A stretch of DNA of 64,000 nucleotides from Agrobacterium tumefaciens (GTDB lineage Bacteria; Pseudomonadota; Alphaproteobacteria; Rhizobiales; Rhizobiaceae): the NCBI RefSeq assembly GCF_005221325.1, contig NZ_CP039889.1, forward strand, positions 1-64,000, written 5' to 3'. The notes beneath the pieces are model-generated. The model made no database searches. It saw only the letters and a program-made list of their open reading frames with translations, and was not told the origin of the DNA. How positions within the stretch are numbered: the stretch's first letter is position 1; every line of letters begins with the position of its first letter. Below are positions 1-10,552 of the stretch, in pieces. The translations under genes and the position numbers were made by a program.

Positions 1-80
1 TGGCGAAAATTGATGGCGATCAATCGTAATAACAATATCATGATATTGTTATTACGATTGATCGCCATCAATTTTCGCCA
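1..80. repeat. Perfect 80-bp palindrome, probable hairpin telomere (protelomerase site)
   Basis: Bases 41-80 are the exact reverse complement of bases 1-40, with no mismatch and no spacer; the dyad lies between 40 and 41 (centre ATATCATGATAT). A zero-spacer palindrome at the very edge of the sequence is what results when an assembler reads around a covalently closed hairpin end, and it equals the replicated telomere that a protelomerase (TelA in Agrobacterium) cuts and rejoins. In the cell the DNA would end at the dyad, so bases 1-40 would be the folded-back strand. That it is a telomere is inferred from geometry and lineage. Confidence 0.85.
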
Positions 81-565
81 CCTTTTCAATTCACTTCCCA
101 ATCAGATTCCCTCTGGTTCCACCTATAAATAAATCCATTAAACTATAAAAACATATATAAATCACCTGTTTATAACAGTGCCAAATTGGCTGCGCACAAA
201 CAGGCGGACTCCTCCAAAAAATCTCTCATCTCTCCCACAATAATGGTGCGCTTTAATTATTTATATTTTTTCATGCTTACTCTCGCATAAATTATATGTT
301 TTGTCGGCTCTCACTCTCTCCTGATTCAGTTACAATCACCCAATCATCGAACAGGTATTCTATTCCGTCCGATAAGTATAAATATAGAAATATATGTATT
401 AATGTCATTCAGATAGGTAAAATATTTCAATAGCGCATATCGGCGCGACTTCGGCCCATCCAGCATACGCGGACTTGCCATATCCGCCGAACGCGACACG
501 TCAAGCGTGTATATTAAGGATCTGTCCGCTCTGTCGGACTGAGTTACCGAACATCACACGGTTCT
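81..565. other. Subtelomeric AT-rich gene-free stretch
   Basis: About 480 bases without a credible reading frame. Bases 81-430 are strikingly AT-rich for this genome, with many short A/T runs; composition returns to normal around 440. I see no tandem repeat or further copy of the terminal palindrome. It may be a spacer or a binding region for telomere-associated proteins; nothing in it shows a function directly. Confidence 0.6.
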
Positions 566-2400: not shown

Positions 2401-3642
2401 TCATCGACCACCTAATCGATCCTGAATTCTTCGACACCGTTTCCGAACGCTGTGCGTAAGTCGCTCGAACACCCTCGTCGGATCGCCGGCCAAACCAGCA
2501 ATCTCCTGTGCCACCGCATCGCATCCGACGCTGACCAGTTGTGCGAGTTCCTCCACCCGTTTCAGCGTTGATGCACCGCTCAGTCCAACGTCATCAGCCA
2601 ATGCCTGCCAATCGGCACGTCGCAGGTCAGGCGCATGGAACCGGTCAGAAATCCCCTGCGGCAGGCTCTGATCGACCTGGCTATAAACGGCAGCGCACAT
2701 CAGGTCATAGAGTGGAGCCATCTTCGCGGACCCACCGGCACCGATCAGGATCGAGTAATTTTTCGCATGCGAGTCCGAATTGCAGATCAGGACATTGAAG
2801 ATCACGGCATCAAGAAGTTTCAGCCGTTCGCCAGGAGAAACAAGATCGCTGACAGCGTCGAACATCATCTTCATGGTCACGCCTCGGCCGGTCGAGGATC
2901 GCTCGTATTTCTGCGACGGGAAATGACCTGTTAACTGGCAAAGATCTTCCTGATGCAGCCTGCGGATCTCCCCTTGCGGATCGGTGAAGCGATCATAGCG
3001 TTTCACAAGAAGATAACGTCGCCTGCCAGCCACTCCGATCGTCGCCTCGGCGGACTCCAGCCCGCAGGCACGCGCAAGCGACAGGCAAAACGCCTCGTTC
3101 TCCACGCTCCCCGCAAGCCGTTTTGTATCCGGCTTCAGGATATGCGTGGATGGCGTCCCGTCGAGCGGAACTGAAATACGGCCATCCCCGTCTACAAAAA
3201 CCGGCAGTTTCTCCTGGACGCCCGCAAGCGACATGGAAACGCCGCGTTCCCCGACCAGAAAGGGTTTGGCGGGAAGTTCATTGAGAATACGCTCCAGCGT
3301 CTGCTCATCCGGAACCGGCTCCAGGTTGATGCCCGCTTTGCGCGGCGCCCCGATCGACAGTGCCCCCGCCGTGTCACGTCCGATATGACCAAGCAGACCG
3401 ACTATGTCTTGCGGAGAAACCTTGAGCCGCTGGCCGATCTCGGCAAGATGTGTTTCGGGAAGCAGATTGGCAAGCCAGGGCAGCAGCTTCGCAGCACCCA
3501 CGGGGCCGGAACGCAGCGGCATGGTGAGCGACACAGGAAAGGCAGAGCGGCGTGCTTCCCAGCCCGCATCGTAGTCCAGTCTCCATTCGCCTTCAAAAGT
3601 CAGACGGGCGACAGGCAAAGTCTCGTAGAAGACGGTTGTCAT
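2401..3642 (-). CDS. hipA: HipA-type serine/threonine kinase toxin
   Basis: 413 aa, normal length for HipA. Recognisable elements: the N-terminal HipA domain (about 1-100), SLAGVQEKLP (138-147), HILKPD (167-172) around the ATP-binding lysine, KRYDR (214-218), HQEDLCQ (230-236), the catalytic loop NVLICNSDSHAKN (283-295) and PLYDL (310-314). Family members phosphorylate aminoacyl-tRNA synthetases (GltX for E. coli HipA) and cause dormancy; the target here cannot be told from sequence. The ATG overlaps the hipB stop by four bases, so the genes are coupled. Catalytic residues look intact. Confidence 0.93.
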   Translation of the reverse strand: MTTVFYETLPVARLTFEGEWRLDYDAGWEARRSAFPVSLTMPLRSGPVGAAKLLPWLANLLPETHLAEIGQRLKVSPQDIVGLLGHIGRDTAGALSIGAPRKAGINLEPVPDEQTLERILNELPAKPFLVGERGVSMSLAGVQEKLPVFVDGDGRISVPLDGTPSTHILKPDTKRLAGSVENEAFCLSLARACGLESAEATIGVAGRRRYLLVKRYDRFTDPQGEIRRLHQEDLCQLTGHFPSQKYERSSTGRGVTMKMMFDAVSDLVSPGERLKLLDAVIFNVLICNSDSHAKNYSILIGAGGSAKMAPLYDLMCAAVYSQVDQSLPQGISDRFHAPDLRRADWQALADDVGLSGASTLKRVEELAQLVSVGCDAVAQEIAGLAGDPTRVFERLTHSVRKRCRRIQDRLGGR

Positions 3643-3911
3643 CGATCAGCACCGAACGTCGGCAGGAAGTTGAGGTCATCGTCCGGTGTAGAGGACACAG
3701 TCTGAACCCTCTTGAGATCGCCAATCTCCATTCCGACCGTACGCGCGACGATCAACGTCTTTTCGAGCTGACAGCTCGGCTTGCCAGCCTCAAGCTCGAC
3801 GATGAAGCGTTCACCCGTTCCAGAACGGGCAGCAAGCTGGGTTTGCGTCCAGCCCAGAGCTTTGCGTCTTTCCCTGATAGCAGTGCCGAAATCGCGCGCT
3901 GACCGGAACAT
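3639..3911 (-). CDS. hipB: HipB-type XRE antitoxin and repressor
   Basis: 90 aa with an XRE helix-turn-helix (about residues 8-62: IRERRKALGWTQTQLAARSG then FIVELEAGKPS), preceded by a near-perfect ribosome binding site, GGAGGTAAACG. It lies directly upstream of hipA with an ATGA overlap, the standard hipBA order. HipB neutralises HipA and represses the operon by binding operators upstream; matching inverted repeats are seen at 3932-4024. The C-terminus (FLPTFGADR) is hydrophobic, as in HipB proteins whose tail contacts the kinase. Confidence 0.9.
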   Translation of the reverse strand: MFRSARDFGTAIRERRKALGWTQTQLAARSGTGERFIVELEAGKPSCQLEKTLIVARTVGMEIGDLKRVQTVSSTPDDDLNFLPTFGADR

Positions 3912-3931
3912 CGTTTACCTCCATCGGATTA

Positions 3932-4024
3932 CTTACCGTACAGGAAGATTGTGGAGAGATCAATACAATGCTTCCCGATCGGTAAGATTATCGTTTTATC
4001 GTATTAAATCATCCTGATCGGGAA
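3932..4024 (-). promoter_or_regulatory. Probable hipBA operator region with two inverted repeats
   Basis: Upstream of hipB, CTTACCG (3932-3938) is the reverse complement of CGGTAAG (3980-3986), and TTCCCGATC (3972-3980) of GATCGGGAA (4016-4024). Both pairs are perfect and interlocked. Paired, widely spaced inverted half-sites in front of a hipB gene fit the multi-operator autorepression known for HipBA. Binding itself is inferred. The remaining stretch to 4339 shows no gene. Confidence 0.55.
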
Positions 4025-4339
4025 ATCTCGCGTCCGAGGAAGCATCCTTTGAAATCCGGTATCGTGTATGGCCCGGTGACTCGTATACCGGACTGGATTC
4101 CAATCAGAAGACTCAACTCAATTGAGTAAGATGCGTGCCTCATGTTTTACTCTCAAAACTTTTTCCAATAGCATGATAAAAATACGAATAATGAAGATGA
4201 TACTCTGTGAAACAGCTCGCCCCAGTCTCCAACACACCGTGATGCATCGGCGTCACAGCCTGGCGTCGACTTCGGGGCCTGAAGCTCACTTCGAAGGTCT
4301 TCCGTTGACGCCAGCCAGCCAACCCGGCAACCTCCCGGC

Positions 4340-4660
4340 ATGACCCTGACGAACAGCTTCATTGCCGAACTTGTCCGTGACGCCAACAGGCTCGATCACC
4401 TTGATGGCTATCAGAAACGCCGCATGCTCGAACGAGCTGTTACCACAATCCGCGACATGCGCGAAACAATCGGTATTCCCTCCGGTCCCGGCCGCGACAG
4501 TCTCATCGACATCCAAACCGTTGCCCTGTCAATCGAACGGGGATGGCGCAGCGATGAAGAGGTGCGAAGCGCTCTGCTGCAGGCAGCAGCCATGATCCGG
4601 GATTTGCATATAGTGCTCGACAGCAGAACCGAAATCAACTTCGCCAAACCCACCGGTTGA
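4340..4660 (+). CDS. Hypothetical 106-aa helical protein
   Basis: An open frame of 106 aa that I do not recognise. It is predicted helical throughout, with even charge distribution (MTLTNSFIAELVRDANRLDH at the start, SIERGWRSDEEVRSALLQAA later) and no membrane segment or signal peptide. Composition is that of a normal protein rather than an antisense shadow. The ribosome binding site is poor. It sits alone between the hipBA promoter region and a convergent MerR regulator. Confidence 0.5.
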   Translation: MTLTNSFIAELVRDANRLDHLDGYQKRRMLERAVTTIRDMRETIGIPSGPGRDSLIDIQTVALSIERGWRSDEEVRSALLQAAAMIRDLHIVLDSRTEINFAKPTG

Positions 4661-4727
4661 TAGCGCCCTCGTCTCGCCAAATATACGGAAAACGTCACCG
4701 GGAATGAAACAATATCCGGAAGGATGA

Positions 4728-5213
4728 TCACCAGCTGCGAAATGCCTCAGGCAGCTTGATCTCCTCGGTCGCTGCAACGGTCGCACGGCTGACCGCTGGC
4801 GTCGCGATCTCCGTCAGGCAAAGGTCTTCTCCGGAGAACCGGGGTTCGTCGCCGGGCTTGCCGCGCGCCATCCAGTTGCGCTTGGCGTGCAGATAATCAA
4901 GCAGCCTCGCAAGCTCTGCGGCCTTCTGTTCCAGTCTTGCGACCTGCGTATCGATGATCGCGATCTCCCGCTCAGCGGACAGGCCGTCGCTGAGAAGTTC
5001 GCTGGCGATCGCGGCGATCTCCTTGAGCGGCATGCCCAGTGACTGTGCAAAGCGGATCATCAGCGCAGTGGAGACATCCCGCTCGCTGAAAATCTGGTAG
5101 GGGTTGCGACCACCCTTTGCGCCTGATTTTGGCGCCAACAGGCCCTTGCGGACATAAAAGCGCACAGTGTCCTGGCTGAGACCGGCCCGGGCAGCAAATT
5201 CTCCAATCAACAT
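4728..5213 (-). CDS. MerR-family transcriptional regulator
   Basis: 161 aa from the ATG at 5213. Residues about 1-70 carry the MerR winged helix (MLIGEFAARAGLSQDTVRFY and following RKGLL), then a long dimerisation helix (about 82-120) and a variable tail without the cysteines of metal sensors, so an organic ligand or redox cue is more likely than a metal. An upstream in-frame GTG at 5240 would lie inside the operator. It diverges from the epimerase gene at 5283, whose promoter has the 19-bp spacer typical for MerR activation. Confidence 0.85.
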   Translation of the reverse strand: MLIGEFAARAGLSQDTVRFYVRKGLLAPKSGAKGGRNPYQIFSERDVSTALMIRFAQSLGMPLKEIAAIASELLSDGLSAEREIAIIDTQVARLEQKAAELARLLDYLHAKRNWMARGKPGDEPRFSGEDLCLTEIATPAVSRATVAATEEIKLPEAFRSW

Positions 5214-5225
5214 TGTTGACACCAC

Positions 5226-5256
5226 TTGACCATGGACCATGGTCCAATCTTATAGA
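5226..5256 (+). promoter_or_regulatory. MerR-type promoter with 19-bp spacer and palindromic operator
   Basis: TTGACC (5226-5231) and TATAGA (5251-5256) form -35 and -10 boxes separated by 19 bp, too long for normal polymerase binding. The 14-bp perfect palindrome TGGACCATGGTCCA (5233-5246) fills the spacer. This is the known architecture of MerR-activated promoters, in which the regulator untwists the spacer. The promoter points at the epimerase gene and the divergent gene encodes a MerR protein. Confidence 0.82.
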
Positions 5257-5282
5257 GCAGACTCCCTCAATTGTGGAGTTAA

Positions 5283-6329
5283 ATGATGACAGACGATCAA
5301 ACCACGCCGAAAGGCGCACCCCTCGCTTTTGTGACAGGGGCGACGGGACTTCTCGGCAACAATCTGGTGCGAGCACTCATCGCTGCGGGCTGGCGCGTAC
5401 GCGCACTGGTGCGGTCCCCGGACAAGGCACGTCAGCAATTCGCCGGCCTCGACGTGGAGATCGTGTCTGGCGACATACTCGACGCGCCGGGTTACGCGCC
5501 GGCGCTCGCGGGTGTCGATACCATCTACCATACAGCCGCTTATTTCCGCGATTCCTACAAGGGCGGTCGACACTGGGACGCACTCTACGCGGCCAATGTC
5601 GAAGGTACGCGCCATTTGCTTGAGCAGGCTTATCAAATGGGCGTGCGGCGTTTCGTCCACACCAGCTCGATTGCCGTACTGCACGGCGCGAGAGGCGAAA
5701 TAATCGATGAAACCATGCTGCGTGACCCACGCGACGCCGACGATTATTATCGCAGCAAGATCCTGTCCGAGCGCGTCGTACTCGGTTTTCTCAATGCCCA
5801 TCCGGACTTTTGGGCGGCGATGGTGCTGCCCGGCTGGATGCATGGGCCGGGCGACATCGGACCAACCTCGGCGGGACAGACCGTCATCGATGTCGCGCTG
5901 CAGCGGCTGCCCGGAATACCGCCCGGCTCATTCTCGGTCGTCGATGCCCGCGATGTTGCGCAGGCGATGATCCTTGCCAGCGACCGGGGGCGGCGCGGCG
6001 AACGCTATCTCGCGGCCGGACGTCACATGACGATGGCCAGTCTCCTGCCCCAGATCGCGCAGCTGGCCGGTGTACCGGCACCAGGTCGCCGCATCCCGCT
6101 TTGGGCGATGCACCTGCTCGCCGCCGGTTACGAGGTCTACGCCCGACTAACGCGACGCCCGGTGCTGTTGAGCTGGGCCATGGTGCGCACTGTTGCCGAC
6201 GAAAACGAGCGGTCGCGCTACGACCCGGCCAAGAGCGAACGCGAACTCGGTCTGCTTTTCCGGCCGGTCGCAGAAACCCTGCGCGACGAGGTGGCGTGGT
6301 TCCGCGCCAATGGACTCATACCGGAATGA
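5283..6329 (+). CDS. NAD(P)-dependent epimerase/dehydratase (extended SDR)
   Basis: 348 aa. The N-terminal Rossmann motif GATGLLG (19-25) and the catalytic set S128/S129 and Y155-x3-K159 identify an atypical or extended short-chain dehydrogenase resembling dihydroflavonol-4-reductases and sugar-nucleotide epimerases. The start (ATG ATG at 5283) follows GGAG. The gene is controlled by the MerR-type promoter just upstream and probably by the divergent regulator, so it may serve in detoxifying a reactive carbonyl or related compound; the substrate is not evident. A long hairpin at 6397-6430 may end the transcript. Confidence 0.85.
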   Translation: MMTDDQTTPKGAPLAFVTGATGLLGNNLVRALIAAGWRVRALVRSPDKARQQFAGLDVEIVSGDILDAPGYAPALAGVDTIYHTAAYFRDSYKGGRHWDALYAANVEGTRHLLEQAYQMGVRRFVHTSSIAVLHGARGEIIDETMLRDPRDADDYYRSKILSERVVLGFLNAHPDFWAAMVLPGWMHGPGDIGPTSAGQTVIDVALQRLPGIPPGSFSVVDARDVAQAMILASDRGRRGERYLAAGRHMTMASLLPQIAQLAGVPAPGRRIPLWAMHLLAAGYEVYARLTRRPVLLSWAMVRTVADENERSRYDPAKSERELGLLFRPVAETLRDEVAWFRANGLIPE

Positions 6330-6396
6330 TCGCTTGATCCGATCCTCTTTCCGCAAGGGCGTATCGCTCAACAACCCGGACGGGGAGAAGAACAAA

Positions 6397-6430
6397 GGGA
6401 TGGCTGCCAGACAGCACTGGCAACCATCCC
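6397..6430 (+). terminator. Hairpin downstream of the epimerase gene
   Basis: GGGATGG (6397-6403) pairs with CCATCCC (6424-6430), and inside it GCCAG (6406-6410) pairs with CTGGC (6417-6421) around a 6-nt loop. There is no following T-run, so it is a possible factor-dependent end or mRNA-stabilising structure. Confidence 0.4.
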
Positions 6431-6611
6431 GAAATCGCGGGCAGCGGAGACCTCATCTCCGGACTGTCTCGCCACGGCCGCCAGGTGCCCTTCTGCCTCG
6501 TCACGCCAGACGGTTGCGCCTGAACCCTGGAACACCCGGAACTGGCTGTTAATTGACCCGGCGATGTCCATGCCGAAACCGTCGCCAGATCATACAAGAC
6601 CTGCGTATCGA
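6431..6611. other. Unassigned intergenic sequence
   Basis: With the flanking hairpin this is part of a roughly 280-base stretch without a convincing gene after the epimerase. A minus-strand frame (about 6368-6571) has a protein-like composition (VFQGSGATVWRDEAEGHLAA) but no good start or stop context, and may be another decayed gene. I could not identify it. Confidence 0.3.
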
Positions 6612-6851
6612 CTATTGTTCGTTTTCGCCGCGGCTCATCACCATGACAGTATCGGTATCAAGGCCTTCACCAGCATGGCCGCGCAGTCTGCCAAAACGTG
6701 TTGGTGGTTGTTTGTTGTCAGCTCTGACCAGCATGAACCGCCCGTCCGGTCCGGGGACAAAACCGGCCAACCGTCCTGACACAATCCTGCAAAGCTCTCG
6801 TACGGCTGCCGGAACGGTCGCCTGAACGTTTGCGGCAACCGTCATTGTCAT
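6612..6851 (-). CDS. Hypothetical 79-aa protein
   Basis: Starts at the ATG at 6851, preceded at a suitable distance by GGAGG; the frame is open upstream to 6875 but the inner start has the better site. The product (TMTVAANVQATVPAAVRELC and onward) has a hydrophobic-then-basic composition and no recognised domain or membrane segment. It diverges from the 42-aa membrane peptide gene at 7037. It may be a real small orphan gene; the main support is the strong ribosome binding site. Confidence 0.4.
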   Translation of the reverse strand: MTMTVAANVQATVPAAVRELCRIVSGRLAGFVPGPDGRFMLVRADNKQPPTRFGRLRGHAGEGLDTDTVMVMSRGENEQ

Positions 6852-7036
6852 TCTATAGACCTCCAACCCAGGCACAGCGGATCCTCCGGCCTTTCCCTGG
6901 CTTCAACTTGCCAGCGCCACGAAACCGGTGTGTCGGGCAACGCGCCAAATCACACTGGCTATATTCAGCCCGCAAAGATTAGGGTTTCATTAACCATACG
7001 GAGCCACCCTCCTTACAGCAACGATGGAGGTTGGCT

Positions 7037-7165
7037 ATGGCTTACGACTGGAACCGCAATGAACGCGACAGCAGATTTGATGAACTGGCGGCAGCTCTCA
7101 TATTCTTCACCGTCGTCAGCCTGCTTCTGGCGTCCGCCTATCTTGTGACGAGCTTTGCCGGATAG
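7037..7165 (+). CDS. Small single-pass membrane protein (42 aa)
   Basis: A 42-aa frame starting with ATG at 7037, preceded by GGAGG six bases upstream, ending TAG at 7165. The first 18 residues are charged (MAYDWNRNERDSRFDEL) and residues about 18-40 form one clean hydrophobic helix rich in A, L, V, F and S, ending in a short TSFAG tail. Charged cytoplasmic end plus single helix plus good ribosome binding site argue for a real gene below the usual annotation cut-off. Function unknown. Confidence 0.6.
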   Translation: MAYDWNRNERDSRFDELAAALIFFTVVSLLLASAYLVTSFAG

Positions 7166-7269
7166 GCAGGTTGTGTCTCGATAACGGGCCTCGCAGCGTT
7201 CCAGAGGCAGGGCAACGGCGCTTTCCACCAAGGACCGCTGCCGAGCCTCTGAGCCAGCTCCAGCGTCGC

Positions 7270-7708
7270 TCACACGGCAATCCGGACCGTTTCCACCTGC
7301 GGCCGCCTCTCGCGCGTCTTTGGCCTCAGCAGGCGGATACGCGACTGCGGCTCAATCACAGACCAGTAGGGCTGTATCAGTTCACGCAGCATCCGGCGCA
7401 GTTCCGGCCAAGGGGTCTCCTCGTTGCGAAGCTCCGGATCGTACATCACCAGCATGCAATGCAGCTTGGCGGCAATGTCGTGGATGTAATAGGGCTGCAG
7501 CGAAATCAGCACACGCCCGGCAATGCCCTCGAACCGGGCAAGGTCCTGCGTCTTGGCAAGGCTTGTGCTGTAGCCGATGCGACGGTCGGCCGCATTCCAT
7601 ACCCGCCTCAGTCTCAGCAATTCCAGACGCGCGCTCTCTGCCGCTTCAGCGCCAATCCGCGGCGCCAGTTCCCTGATTTCCTCGAAGGAGGCCCACTTGC
7701 CGGGCGTG
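7270..7708 (-). pseudogene. 5'-truncated gene for an unknown helical protein
   Basis: The frame stays open and protein-like from about 7708 down to the stop at 7270, for example KWASFEEIRELAPRIGAEAA and later LQPYYIHDIAAKLHCMLVMY, ending RRPQVETVRIAV. No start codon with a binding site exists at the upstream edge, where the frame runs into the opposing truncated kinase gene; the first internal ATG (7620) lies in mid-protein. It looks like the C-terminal about 145 residues of a longer soluble protein that lost its 5' end. I do not recognise the family. Confidence 0.5.
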
Positions 7709-8170
7709 CCAAAAGTTCATTTCCACAGCGACGATCTGCGGGGTTACATCAAGCACGGCCGTATCGATCCCTGGCTCCCGCAATCCCATCAGCAGAACCG
7801 CATGATCATGCAGATCGCCGCCGACGTTGCAGGGCGCTACGCCGAGGCAGGTTATTTCGTCATCCTCGATGGCGTCGTGCGACCGGACTGGCTGCCGGCC
7901 TTCACGGCGCTTGCTCGCACGCTGCATTACATCGTACTGCGAACGACAGTGATGGAGGCGATCGAACGCTGTCAGGCGCGCGGCGGCGACAGCCTCAGCG
8001 ACCCGCTTGTCGTGGCCGATCTTCACTCCCAGTTTGCCGATCTCGGCGCCTATGAGCACCACGCCCTCTCTGTGTCAGGCAAGGACGAACAGGCAGCTCT
8101 GCAATCGGTCATCAATGCGCTGCAATCGGCACGTTTCCGTATTGATGCCACGAGCGATGGCAATCGATAA
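7706..8170 (+). pseudogene. AAA_33/zeta-like P-loop kinase lacking its P-loop
   Basis: The frame encodes KVHFHSDDLRGYIKHGRIDP, then GYFVILDGVVRPDW and LRTTVMEAIERCQARGGD, matching small ATP-dependent kinases of the AAA_33/chloramphenicol-phosphotransferase/zeta-toxin-like group from their substrate-binding region to the lid and C-terminus. The N-terminal Walker A glycine loop (about 25 residues) that should precede GVPKVHFHSDD is missing, and the frame upstream of 7706 gives no kinase sequence. Without the phosphate-binding loop it cannot be active. It meets another headless gene pointing the other way at the same spot. Confidence 0.65.
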
Positions 8171-8192
8171 CAAACACCCAGGTGAAGCACGC

Positions 8193-8254
8193 GTGTCTGT
8201 ACCGACCGTTAATCTCTTCCGTCACGGCGAAACGGCCTGGAACTGCCTTGGCGG
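8193..8254 (+). pseudogene. N-terminal scrap of a histidine phosphatase (phosphoglycerate mutase family)
   Basis: A GTG at 8193 opens a frame encoding VSVPTVNLFRHGETAWN; LFRHGETAWN is the hallmark N-terminal catalytic motif of the histidine phosphatase superfamily. After about 20 codons the similarity stops, no GR-x-D-x-PL continuation follows, and the frame ends at 8339. Only the first 5-10% of a normal gene is left. Confidence 0.55.
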
Positions 8255-8331
8255 TTTCAGCGGCAACGGGGGAAGCGTCCCAGCGGCCGGTTGCCATGCC
8301 AAACAGAAACAGTTTAAGGAATTTGATGTTT

Positions 8332-8395
8332 CCTTATAACTACTGCGCCAGCTGTCGCGATCCCGGTTATAAGGGAAAGATTGGAACCTTATAAC
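8332..8395 (+). promoter_or_regulatory. Three CCTTATAAC repeats upstream of the nucleotidyltransferase gene
   Basis: CCTTATAAC occurs at 8332-8340 and 8387-8395, and its exact reverse complement GTTATAAGG at 8366-8374. The last two form a perfect inverted repeat with a 12-bp spacer about 30 bp before the start at 8426. The layout fits an operator for the downstream gene; the regulator is unknown. Confidence 0.5.
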
Positions 8396-8425
8396 AACAT
8401 AAGTCCGCCGCCAGGATCGCTTGCC

Positions 8426-9539
8426 ATGACACAAATTGACCTCGCATACCGGACAATGTTCGCGGAATTGGCGCAGCGATCGTTCGACGCACAGTTCTCC
8501 ACCGACTTCCCTCATAATGGACGGTTCGTGAACGTCCCCGTGAAAGGCAAGGGATACTGGTACTTCGAGTATCCGACGCCTGATGGCGACAAGCGGCGCT
8601 ATGTAGGGCCGGAAGCAGATGAGGAAATAACCGCGAGAGTACACGCCCACAGGGAAGTCAAAGACGACCTCAGGGAGCGGCGTCGGCTCGTCAACGCACT
8701 GACACGAACGGGCGGCATGGCGTCGCCTGAACGTTTTGCGGGCGAAGTAACCAAAGCTCTCGCTGACGCCGGATTGTTTCGCCTTCGAGCCCTCATCATA
8801 GGCTCGGTTGCGTTCAGCTGCTATTCGGGGCTGCTAGGGGTTCGTCTTCCAAACGCCTCGCTCCAGACGGGCGACGCCGACTACGCCCAGGATTTCGCAA
8901 TCAGCGCGGAAGTCGGGGACATCACCCTGCCACCGATCCTGGACGTCCTGCATACCGTCGATCCGTCCTTCAGGGCAGTGCCGCATCAGGCGGACAAGGT
9001 GCGTGTGGCCGCCTTCGTGAACTCGGGCAACTATCGCGTAGAGTTCCTGACGGGGAACCGCGGGTCGGACGACCATACGGGCAAGCCGTCACCCATGCCT
9101 GCTCTCGGCGGCGCGTCGGCAGAAAACCTTCGCTTCCTGGACTACCTGATCTACGAACCCGTGAGAACAGTGCTGCTGTACAGAGAAGGCGTGAGCGTCA
9201 ATATCCCCGCTCCCGAGCGCTACGCCATTCACAAGTTGATTGTTGCGTCCCGGAGGCGCAACGATGCCCTGGGCAGGGCAAAGCGTGACAAGGATATTCA
9301 ACAGGCATCGCTGCTGTCAGAGGCCCTGGTGGAAACACGGCAAGGATATTTGCTGGCCGACGTCTGGAACGAGGCGTGGGAGCGTGGTCCCGCATGGCAG
9401 GAAGCAATCACTTCAGGCCTTGCCATGATGCCGGATACAATTCAGCGAACATGTCTTCTACGAATTCGAGCACACAAAAATCCGCAAGGTCTGGTCGATC
9501 GTCGACAAGGCCGCAATCGAGCGCCAGCTTGGCCGATAG
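8426..9539 (+). pseudogene. GSU2403-family nucleotidyltransferase-fold protein with a frameshift
   Basis: From ATG 8426 the frame gives MTQIDLAYRTMFAELAQRSF, then LIIGSVAFSCYSGLLG and TGDADYAQD, the GS...DxD core of a nucleotidyltransferase fold, like the rhizobial GSU2403-type proteins often linked to toxin or defence functions. Around 9437 the coherent sequence leaves this frame: after ...GLAMMPD it continues in the +1 frame as QFSEHVFYEFEHTKIRKVW...ERQLGR with a stop at 9537-9539. One extra base between 9434 and 9440 explains the break. Either the gene is inactivated near its C-terminus or the base is a sequencing error. Confidence 0.65.
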
Positions 9540-10035
9540 CATCCTCGGTGACAACAGGGACAGAAAAGAGGCCCTGCACTACGCCCGCTCAGTCGCATCG
9601 CTTGTCGAGAATACCGCCACAAGCTGGAAACGGCATCTGGAAAGCGAACACCGCTCGGAAACATGGCAGCGTGAGAAACGGGATATCGTCGAGGTTCCCG
9701 CTCTCACAAAGCGTAGCGAGGAAATCCTCACGCGCTTCGATGCCCTTTCCTATGAGCAGAGGCCAGAGTTTATCCGCCAGATGATGAACACAAGCGACGG
9801 CCTCCAGGCATTGCAGGAGGTCACAACAATAACGCAAGCCCTGACGAAGCGGTTCGGTACGACAAACCTGCGCAACAGGGATCTGGACAAGCTCCGGATC
9901 ACGGCAGACGCACATGTTTCTGTCGAACGCATCAGGCAGGTGGCCGGACTGGTCGAGCGGGTACACCACGCCGAGCTCGTCCAGAAGCAAAAGCTCACCC
10001 TCGGTTTGACGCAGCGGCTCGGGATGCGAATGTGA
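9451..10035 (+). CDS. Hypothetical helical protein, possibly 5'-truncated
   Basis: 194 aa if started at ATG 9451, but the first 25 codons overlap the out-of-frame end of the preceding gene and are low-complexity. The well-composed part begins around 9526 (LADSILGDNRDRKEALHYAR) and is predicted helical throughout, with a basic C-terminus (LTLGLTQRLGMRM). No clear start codon with a binding site exists near 9526, so this may be the 3' part of a longer gene. I do not recognise the family; a weak impression of the C-terminal part of a conjugation or T4SS-related protein is not strong enough to name. Confidence 0.45.
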   Translation: MSSTNSSTQKSARSGRSSTRPQSSASLADSILGDNRDRKEALHYARSVASLVENTATSWKRHLESEHRSETWQREKRDIVEVPALTKRSEEILTRFDALSYEQRPEFIRQMMNTSDGLQALQEVTTITQALTKRFGTTNLRNRDLDKLRITADAHVSVERIRQVAGLVERVHHAELVQKQKLTLGLTQRLGMRM

Positions 10036-10552
10036 GAACCGTCGCGCCCGCGCGCGTAAAAGCAGGGGCCCACCAGAGAGGGCACACCCTGCCCTCGCCG
10101 TCTGCCAACAGGGGACCACAAACATCGTGGCAACGCAGGCCATTGCCAATATTTCGCGAGCGACGGAACCGTTCGTCCTTTCCCGCATTCATAAATCAGG
10201 TGGACCTTTCCCCCTCCGCCTGTCCCCTCCTTGCAGCCCTGTAAGGTGGCACGACTCGAACCCTCCCCCGCCGGAGGGTTTCTTTTTTGATGGAGTGGCT
10301 ATGGTGACTAAGTGTCAAAATGTTCCGCTAGTTATGTAACGGAAAGCAGTATCTCGAGACTCCGAAAATACAGTTACAAAAGAAATCAGGACCAGCGGAA
10401 CTACCTTCTTTGTAGAACGGCCGAATAATACCTGGATGACGGTGATCCTCGCTACCACCATGGGGCCGCAGAAACCGTTCAACGCGTGGGTCGAAACTTC
10501 CTCGCTCAAAAGGTGACAGCCAGGGCTCTTGCAACGGGAGCCACTTCCCGAT
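10036..10552. other. Gene-free stretch before the RES-Xre operon
   Basis: About 520 bases without a supported gene. It contains a terminator at 10259-10288. The segment 10370-10500 has a protein-like frame (FFVERPNNTWMTVILATTMG) that lacks a start and stops soon after, perhaps a remnant of a lost gene; I cannot identify it. Confidence 0.4.
10259..10288 (+). terminator. Rho-independent terminator
   Basis: AACCCTCC (10259-10266) pairs with GGAGGGTT (10273-10280) around the loop CCCGCC, followed by TTTCTTTTTT overlapping the stem end. It would end plus-strand transcription from the hypothetical gene finishing at 10035. Confidence 0.8.

Follow-up and report, generated by a model that had tools for sequence, protein, structure and literature searches.

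The first 80 bases of the window (the whole stretch of DNA analyzed here, 64,000 nucleotides, corresponding to bases 1 to 64000 of contig C2) are almost certainly the left telomere of a linear chromid, sequenced around a covalently closed hairpin, with 40 second-strand bases placed ahead of the true first base, base 41. C2 measures 2,301,325 bp and belongs to a genome of 6,138,594 bp in six contigs. Judging from the sequence, both C2 ends would be covalently closed, and bases 1 to 40 would have arisen by read-through. The preliminary description had already taken the start of the window for a hairpin telomere read through, and this reading is supported by the presence of telA, by a second end, by the TCATGA center and by the match of the copied bases to their own telomere.

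The left terminus

The palindrome is exact, as described earlier for position 1: the arms (bases 1 to 40 and 41 to 80) are 100% complementary over the 80 bp with a spacer of zero. Scanning every dyad in the 64 kb gave a longest other palindromic arm of 9 bp, compared to 40 at the window start. Exact 40-bp arms are expected about 2e-19 times in 64 kb of this composition, which rules out a chance palindrome and agrees with the earlier judgment that it was very unlikely by chance. The core ACAATATCATGATATTGT had a single match in the window with up to three mismatches tolerated (chance mean, 0.02). Folded as single-stranded DNA, bases 1 to 80 gave one 38-bp stem (-44.1 kcal/mol, z score of -15.5).

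Bases 1 to 40 (minus strand), the exact reverse complement of 41 to 80, would be the read-through copy of the telomere produced by fold-back, most likely duplicate letters and no separate part of the replicon. The true left terminus of the chromid would then be bases 41 to 80 (plus strand). The dyad scan places the center at 40/41, where the terminus had been proposed, and the chromid contig of the relative G007 (C2, 2,075,577 bp), which starts and ends exactly with TGATATTGTT, has its edges at the equivalent dyad. This relative is probably C58 or a near-identical strain. Around the dyad lies the conserved TelA target of two 13-bp half-sites (bases 28 to 53, delimited by conservation over 32 telomere halves), with the central TCATGA (bases 38 to 43) between the predicted cuts at 37/38 on the plus strand and 43/44 on the minus strand.

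The second end and the topology of the replicon

Genome-wide, ACAATATCATGATATTGT was found without mismatch at only two sites, C2:32-49 and C2:2301252-2301269, both near the ends of C2. A single further match with up to three mismatches was internal on C4 and not palindromic, and the same search over the six contigs revealed no additional TelA-type ends. The second end, for which the preliminary description had suggested a search, lies at the far end of C2, where an exact palindrome of 65+65 bp around the same core reaches the last base. Left and right telomeres are identical for 34 nucleotides (nt) outward from the dyad and diverge beyond. The reverse complement of bases 1 to 40 matched the left telomere at 40/40 positions and the right one at 36/40, which argues for a fold-back and against a left-right (circular) junction; likewise, the right-end copy matched its own telomere at 65/65 positions versus 51/65 for the left telomere. 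A left-right junction is excluded, since a circle or head-to-tail joining would carry the letters of the other end. Of the linear replicon proposed earlier, what stands is that the end sequences contradict a circular left-right junction, while linearity as such remains a probable reading.

RepC was located at C2:1197232-1197750, 52% along the contig, which indicates an internal origin of the repABC type. Contigs C3 to C6 begin with ATG or GTG, and RepC is found about 2.5 kb inside C3, C4, and C6, a pattern that seems to resemble circles rotated to a start gene. The contig ends scanned besides those of C2, namely the starts of C3 to C6 and the final bases of C3 and C4, lacked an edge palindrome of 8 bp or longer. 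C1 is presumed to be circular. The C2 record exceeds the replicon by 105 bases (40 at the left and 65 at the right), and therefore its physical length would be 2,301,220 bp.

The palindrome could also be real duplex, sequenced from a replicated but unresolved head-to-head junction (rTel), which would give identical letters; such junctions are expected to be short-lived, and we consider this origin very unlikely. Head-to-head junctions are an accepted replication intermediate (PMC11271964), but the literature already records long reads that run through the hairpins of chromids and linear plasmids in this family (PMC13293297), and an rTel junction likewise implies a hairpin-ended replicon after resolution. 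A circular C2 in which the palindrome marks the meeting place of left and right ends is extremely improbable. Nothing speaks for it beyond the inverted repeat itself, and it would have to accommodate the 4/40 differences between the left copy and the right telomere and the 14/65 between the right copy and the left telomere. For comparison, the symmetry is lost at arm position 73 in contig C62 of the relative G012, where two different telomeres are in fact joined. Fold-back chimeras occur in some libraries, so that a nontelomeric internal inverted repeat or library artifact, cut by the contig edge, might be invoked as well. Nevertheless, the same core is present at both C2 ends and nowhere else without mismatch, its center is the TelA center TCATGA, and contigs of other genomes of the genus end in the same site, which leaves this explanation with a negligible probability.

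TelA protelomerase

The sole protelomerase match in the genome was telA (C1:2276443-2277771, 442 amino acids [aa]), on the 2.95-Mb contig C1; no second protelomerase was found in this genome and no match on C2 itself. The enzyme is identical to the characterized C58 protein at 428/442 positions. The search for telA proposed earlier thus had a positive outcome, and the absence of the gene, considered there as an objection, is excluded. TelA aligned end to end with the crystallized C58 TelA (4dwp) with 14 differences, and the same 14 positions separate it from the TelA of G007, which showed no difference from 4dwp in the alignment. All nine inspected catalytic and refolding residues (Y201, R205, K208, R255, K288, Y363, H394, E400, and Y405) are kept. 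Apart from H394, their roles are described in PMC3558466.

Protelomerases were present in 38/39 genomes of the genus, counting that of the window, with G025 as the one lacking a match. The nine residues were kept in 37/38 proteins (37 relatives), the exception being a divergent protein on contig C6 of G013. This genome (probably Rhizobium oryzihabitans, with C6 and C7 corresponding to NZ_CP048637.1 and NZ_CP048638.1) carries a normal telA on C1; the divergent protein, 27% identical, is encoded on C6, and protelomerase fragments are present on C6 and C7. C58 and other biovar 1 strains have telA on the circular chromosome (PMC13293297), and its location here on the main circular-type chromosome C1 points to a biovar 1-type Agrobacterium as the host.

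Since the TelA of this genome departs from the C58 enzyme at 14 of 442 aa and the 13-nt half-site is the same, it would be predicted to act on this site. Replication would start from the internal origin (repC at 52%), and the forks would pass through both hairpins, converting them into duplex palindromic junctions. TelA, supplied in trans from the other chromosome, C1, would bind as a dimer to both 13-bp half-sites, cut 6 bp apart around TCATGA via Tyr405, refold the strands, and reseal each end as a hairpin, with the physical end at 40/41. Junction replication, cutting 6 bp apart, refolding, and resealing have been described (PMC3558466 and PMC11271964), and for this genome we infer every step past the presence of site and enzyme.

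Target site across the telomeres of the genus

The full core was found with up to two mismatches in 16/39 genomes of the genus (own included), of which G023 was dropped as a chance match, internal and nonpalindromic, leaving 15. To these we added G007, G015, G034, G037, and G038, whose contigs begin at, near, or just inside the dyad. The resulting set of 32 telomere halves (31 from 20 genomes of the genus plus one Nostoc record; ends short of the site were excluded) showed 97 to 100% conservation at positions 1 to 13 from the dyad, position 6 apart (76%; T in 22 and C in 7), dropping to 66% at position 14. The conserved TelA half-site is thus delimited to about 13 bp. In G007, G010, and G032, the two ends match one another for 13, 14, and 13 nt. 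Huang et al. reportedly defined in 2012 a minimal TelA target of 26 bp. The conservation over about 13 nt also fits the 13-to-14-bp stems used as crystal substrates (PMC3558466).

The window carries the natural TelA center, TCATGA, so that the comparison with known TelA targets suggested in the preliminary description proved favorable. This hexamer is the natural center and the central hexamer of the TelA cocrystals in PMC3558466, and it is also given as the natural center in PMC11271964, the only one of the strings sought that is printed in the part of that article available. Term searches in PMC10686437 and PMC7861564 turned up no telomere sequence in print. A natural exception is the TCTTGA of contig C1 from Agrobacterium arsenijevicii KFB 330 (see below). 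The contig of G038 opens with CGATAC, which may be a tip that was cut or altered. The Nostoc record (Nostoc mirabile contig NZ_JAIVFS010000251.1, 3,414 bp) forms a single perfect palindrome centered on the TelA core and is probably an Agrobacterium contaminant. In the Agrobacterium pusense contig NZ_FNBB01000022.1 (26,098 bp), the core lies exactly midway, and within the portion read the palindrome extends over at least 2,951 bp in each arm.

At the other genus ends examined, edge palindromes of 8 bp or longer had arms of 8 to 80 bp and were exact to the contig edge, with two exceptions, KFB 330 C1 (one apex mismatch) and contig C20 of G017 (a doubled telomere with an arm of 81 and 3 mismatches). 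Among the ends of chromid-size contigs from 12 relatives, 9/24 reach the site, 5 of them in an edge palindrome with arms of 8 bp or longer. The remaining 15/24 stop short of the site or begin elsewhere, which we tentatively ascribe to assembly. Together with the count of 16/39 genomes, these ends weigh against the hairpin reading.

Subtelomeric region

Next to the dyad, a subtelomere of about 230 bp (bases 41 to 271, plus strand) is common to the right end with 78 to 80% identity in the alignment of both ends. It contains the element TATATAAA (bases 154 to 161, plus strand), 114 nt from the dyad, which recurs at 106 to 115 nt in 19/32 halves and at 265 to 267 nt in 5 more that belong to another subtelomere type; it is at neither distance in 8/32. 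Since telomeres are related, these counts are not independent. In an alignment of 13 ends, chosen among those with the element, TATATAAA stands out despite the divergence around it.

Further inward, a subtelomeric segment of about 6 kb (bases 3108 to 9437) has an inverted copy near the right end (C2:2287710-2295139, about 6 to 14 kb from that end) that includes about 1 kb extra. Identity is 99.1% over bases 3108 to 7707 and 97.6% over bases 7690 to 9437. A genome search with bases 3108 to 7707 returned the two copies plus a piece of about 220 bp at 79% identity (C2:2237860) among the 40 of 56 candidates that were scored. The hipA-like gene of the left copy is full-length (413 aa, with both domains), compared to 187 aa and only the N-terminal domain in the right copy; because of this shortening, the derived copy is likely that at the right. 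Together with the identity of 97.6 to 99.1%, the shortening makes a recent exchange between both C2 ends likely, as judged from these repeats. A subtelomeric repeat at both ends is not without precedent, since a terminal duplication, about 33 kb long, has been published for strain rho-11.1 (PMC13293297). We found no apt work on Agrobacterium subtelomeres among the literature matches listed. The outermost genes at this telomere include toxin-antitoxin-like genes, with a Phd/YefM-type antitoxin gene beside an unassigned 138-aa frame (bases 566 to 1245) and a hipBA-like pair (bases 2401 to 3911).

A possible linear repABC plasmid in KFB 330

The genome of A. arsenijevicii KFB 330 has four TelA-type ends (contigs C1, C17, C55, and C61), no other match to the degenerate site, and one protelomerase match, on C45. 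Contigs C17 and C61 match the chromid ends of G007 and G034 (86% and 95%), and the repC of C74 is the closest in score and length to chromid repC. At the start of contig C1 (105,935 bp) stands a TelA-type telomere, and about 6.5 kb from that end, at positions 6558 to 10050, the contig encodes repA, repB, and repC; part of it resembles mobilization genes of Agrobacterium fabrum plasmids. Its last 43 nt overlap exactly with both telomeric contigs C55 and C61, and its other end would therefore be either of the two. In places, C55 and C61 agree at 93 to 96%, and C55 is similar to chromid ends as well. The assembly is a draft from 125-bp paired-end Illumina reads (PMC4408340), which makes the contig joins tentative.

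We regard as an evenly balanced proposal that a repABC plasmid of about 110 to 113 kb without its own protelomerase forms another linear replicon in KFB 330, resolved in trans by the TelA of the chromid, with telomeres as portable end modules. C1 could also be a plasmid integrated near a chromid end, as the right end of the G032 chromid shares 86% identity with C1:99443-103490, which counts against a separate plasmid. If true, the proposal would make this repABC replicon unlike the published pLin plasmids, and the TCTTGA site, if resolved, would yield one TT-tipped and one AA-tipped hairpin per replication. In the parts of the literature available, the KFB 330 announcement describes telA and a linear chromid only (PMC4408340), and we found no mention of KFB 330, arsenijevicii, or repABC in PMC13293297. 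A limited search among the literature matches listed found no telomere-bearing KFB 330 repABC replicon in print.

Comparison with known hairpin telomeres

The telomeres of C2 share with those of the C58 linear chromosome the TCATGA center, the TelA enzyme at the identity given above, and the location of telA on the other chromosome. The half-site is identical over 13 nt between the telomere of the window and both G007 ends. In contrast, agreement between both C2 ends extends over 34 nt from the dyad versus 13 nt in G007 (the 25 bp of agreement given for the C58 ends in PMC13293297 is counted differently from these dyad-outward values), and the C2 record includes the hairpin read-through while that of G007 does not. 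The linear plasmids of the Rhizobiaceae (pLin13.3 group) have closed hairpins made by a protelomerase, as predicted for C2, with read-through visible in long reads (PMC13293297). However, they carry their own protelomerase, which C2 lacks, the sole match being on C1, and their terminal repeats are described as having no detectable homology to chromid ends (PMC13293297), which does not hold for C2. Borrelia ResT and the phage enzymes TelK and TelN belong to the same catalytic family as TelA (Pfam ResT-TelK_cat; ResT 8vs5 was a weak match) and share the 6-bp staggered cut, but they act on other target sequences (PMC3558466) and are similar to TelA only in the catalytic part.

The explanation given here is textbook for the genus, with a mechanism already known from C58. 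What it adds is that the ends of C2 are now fixed, and most likely its topology too, and that this replicon shows cleanly what hairpin ends look like in an assembly.
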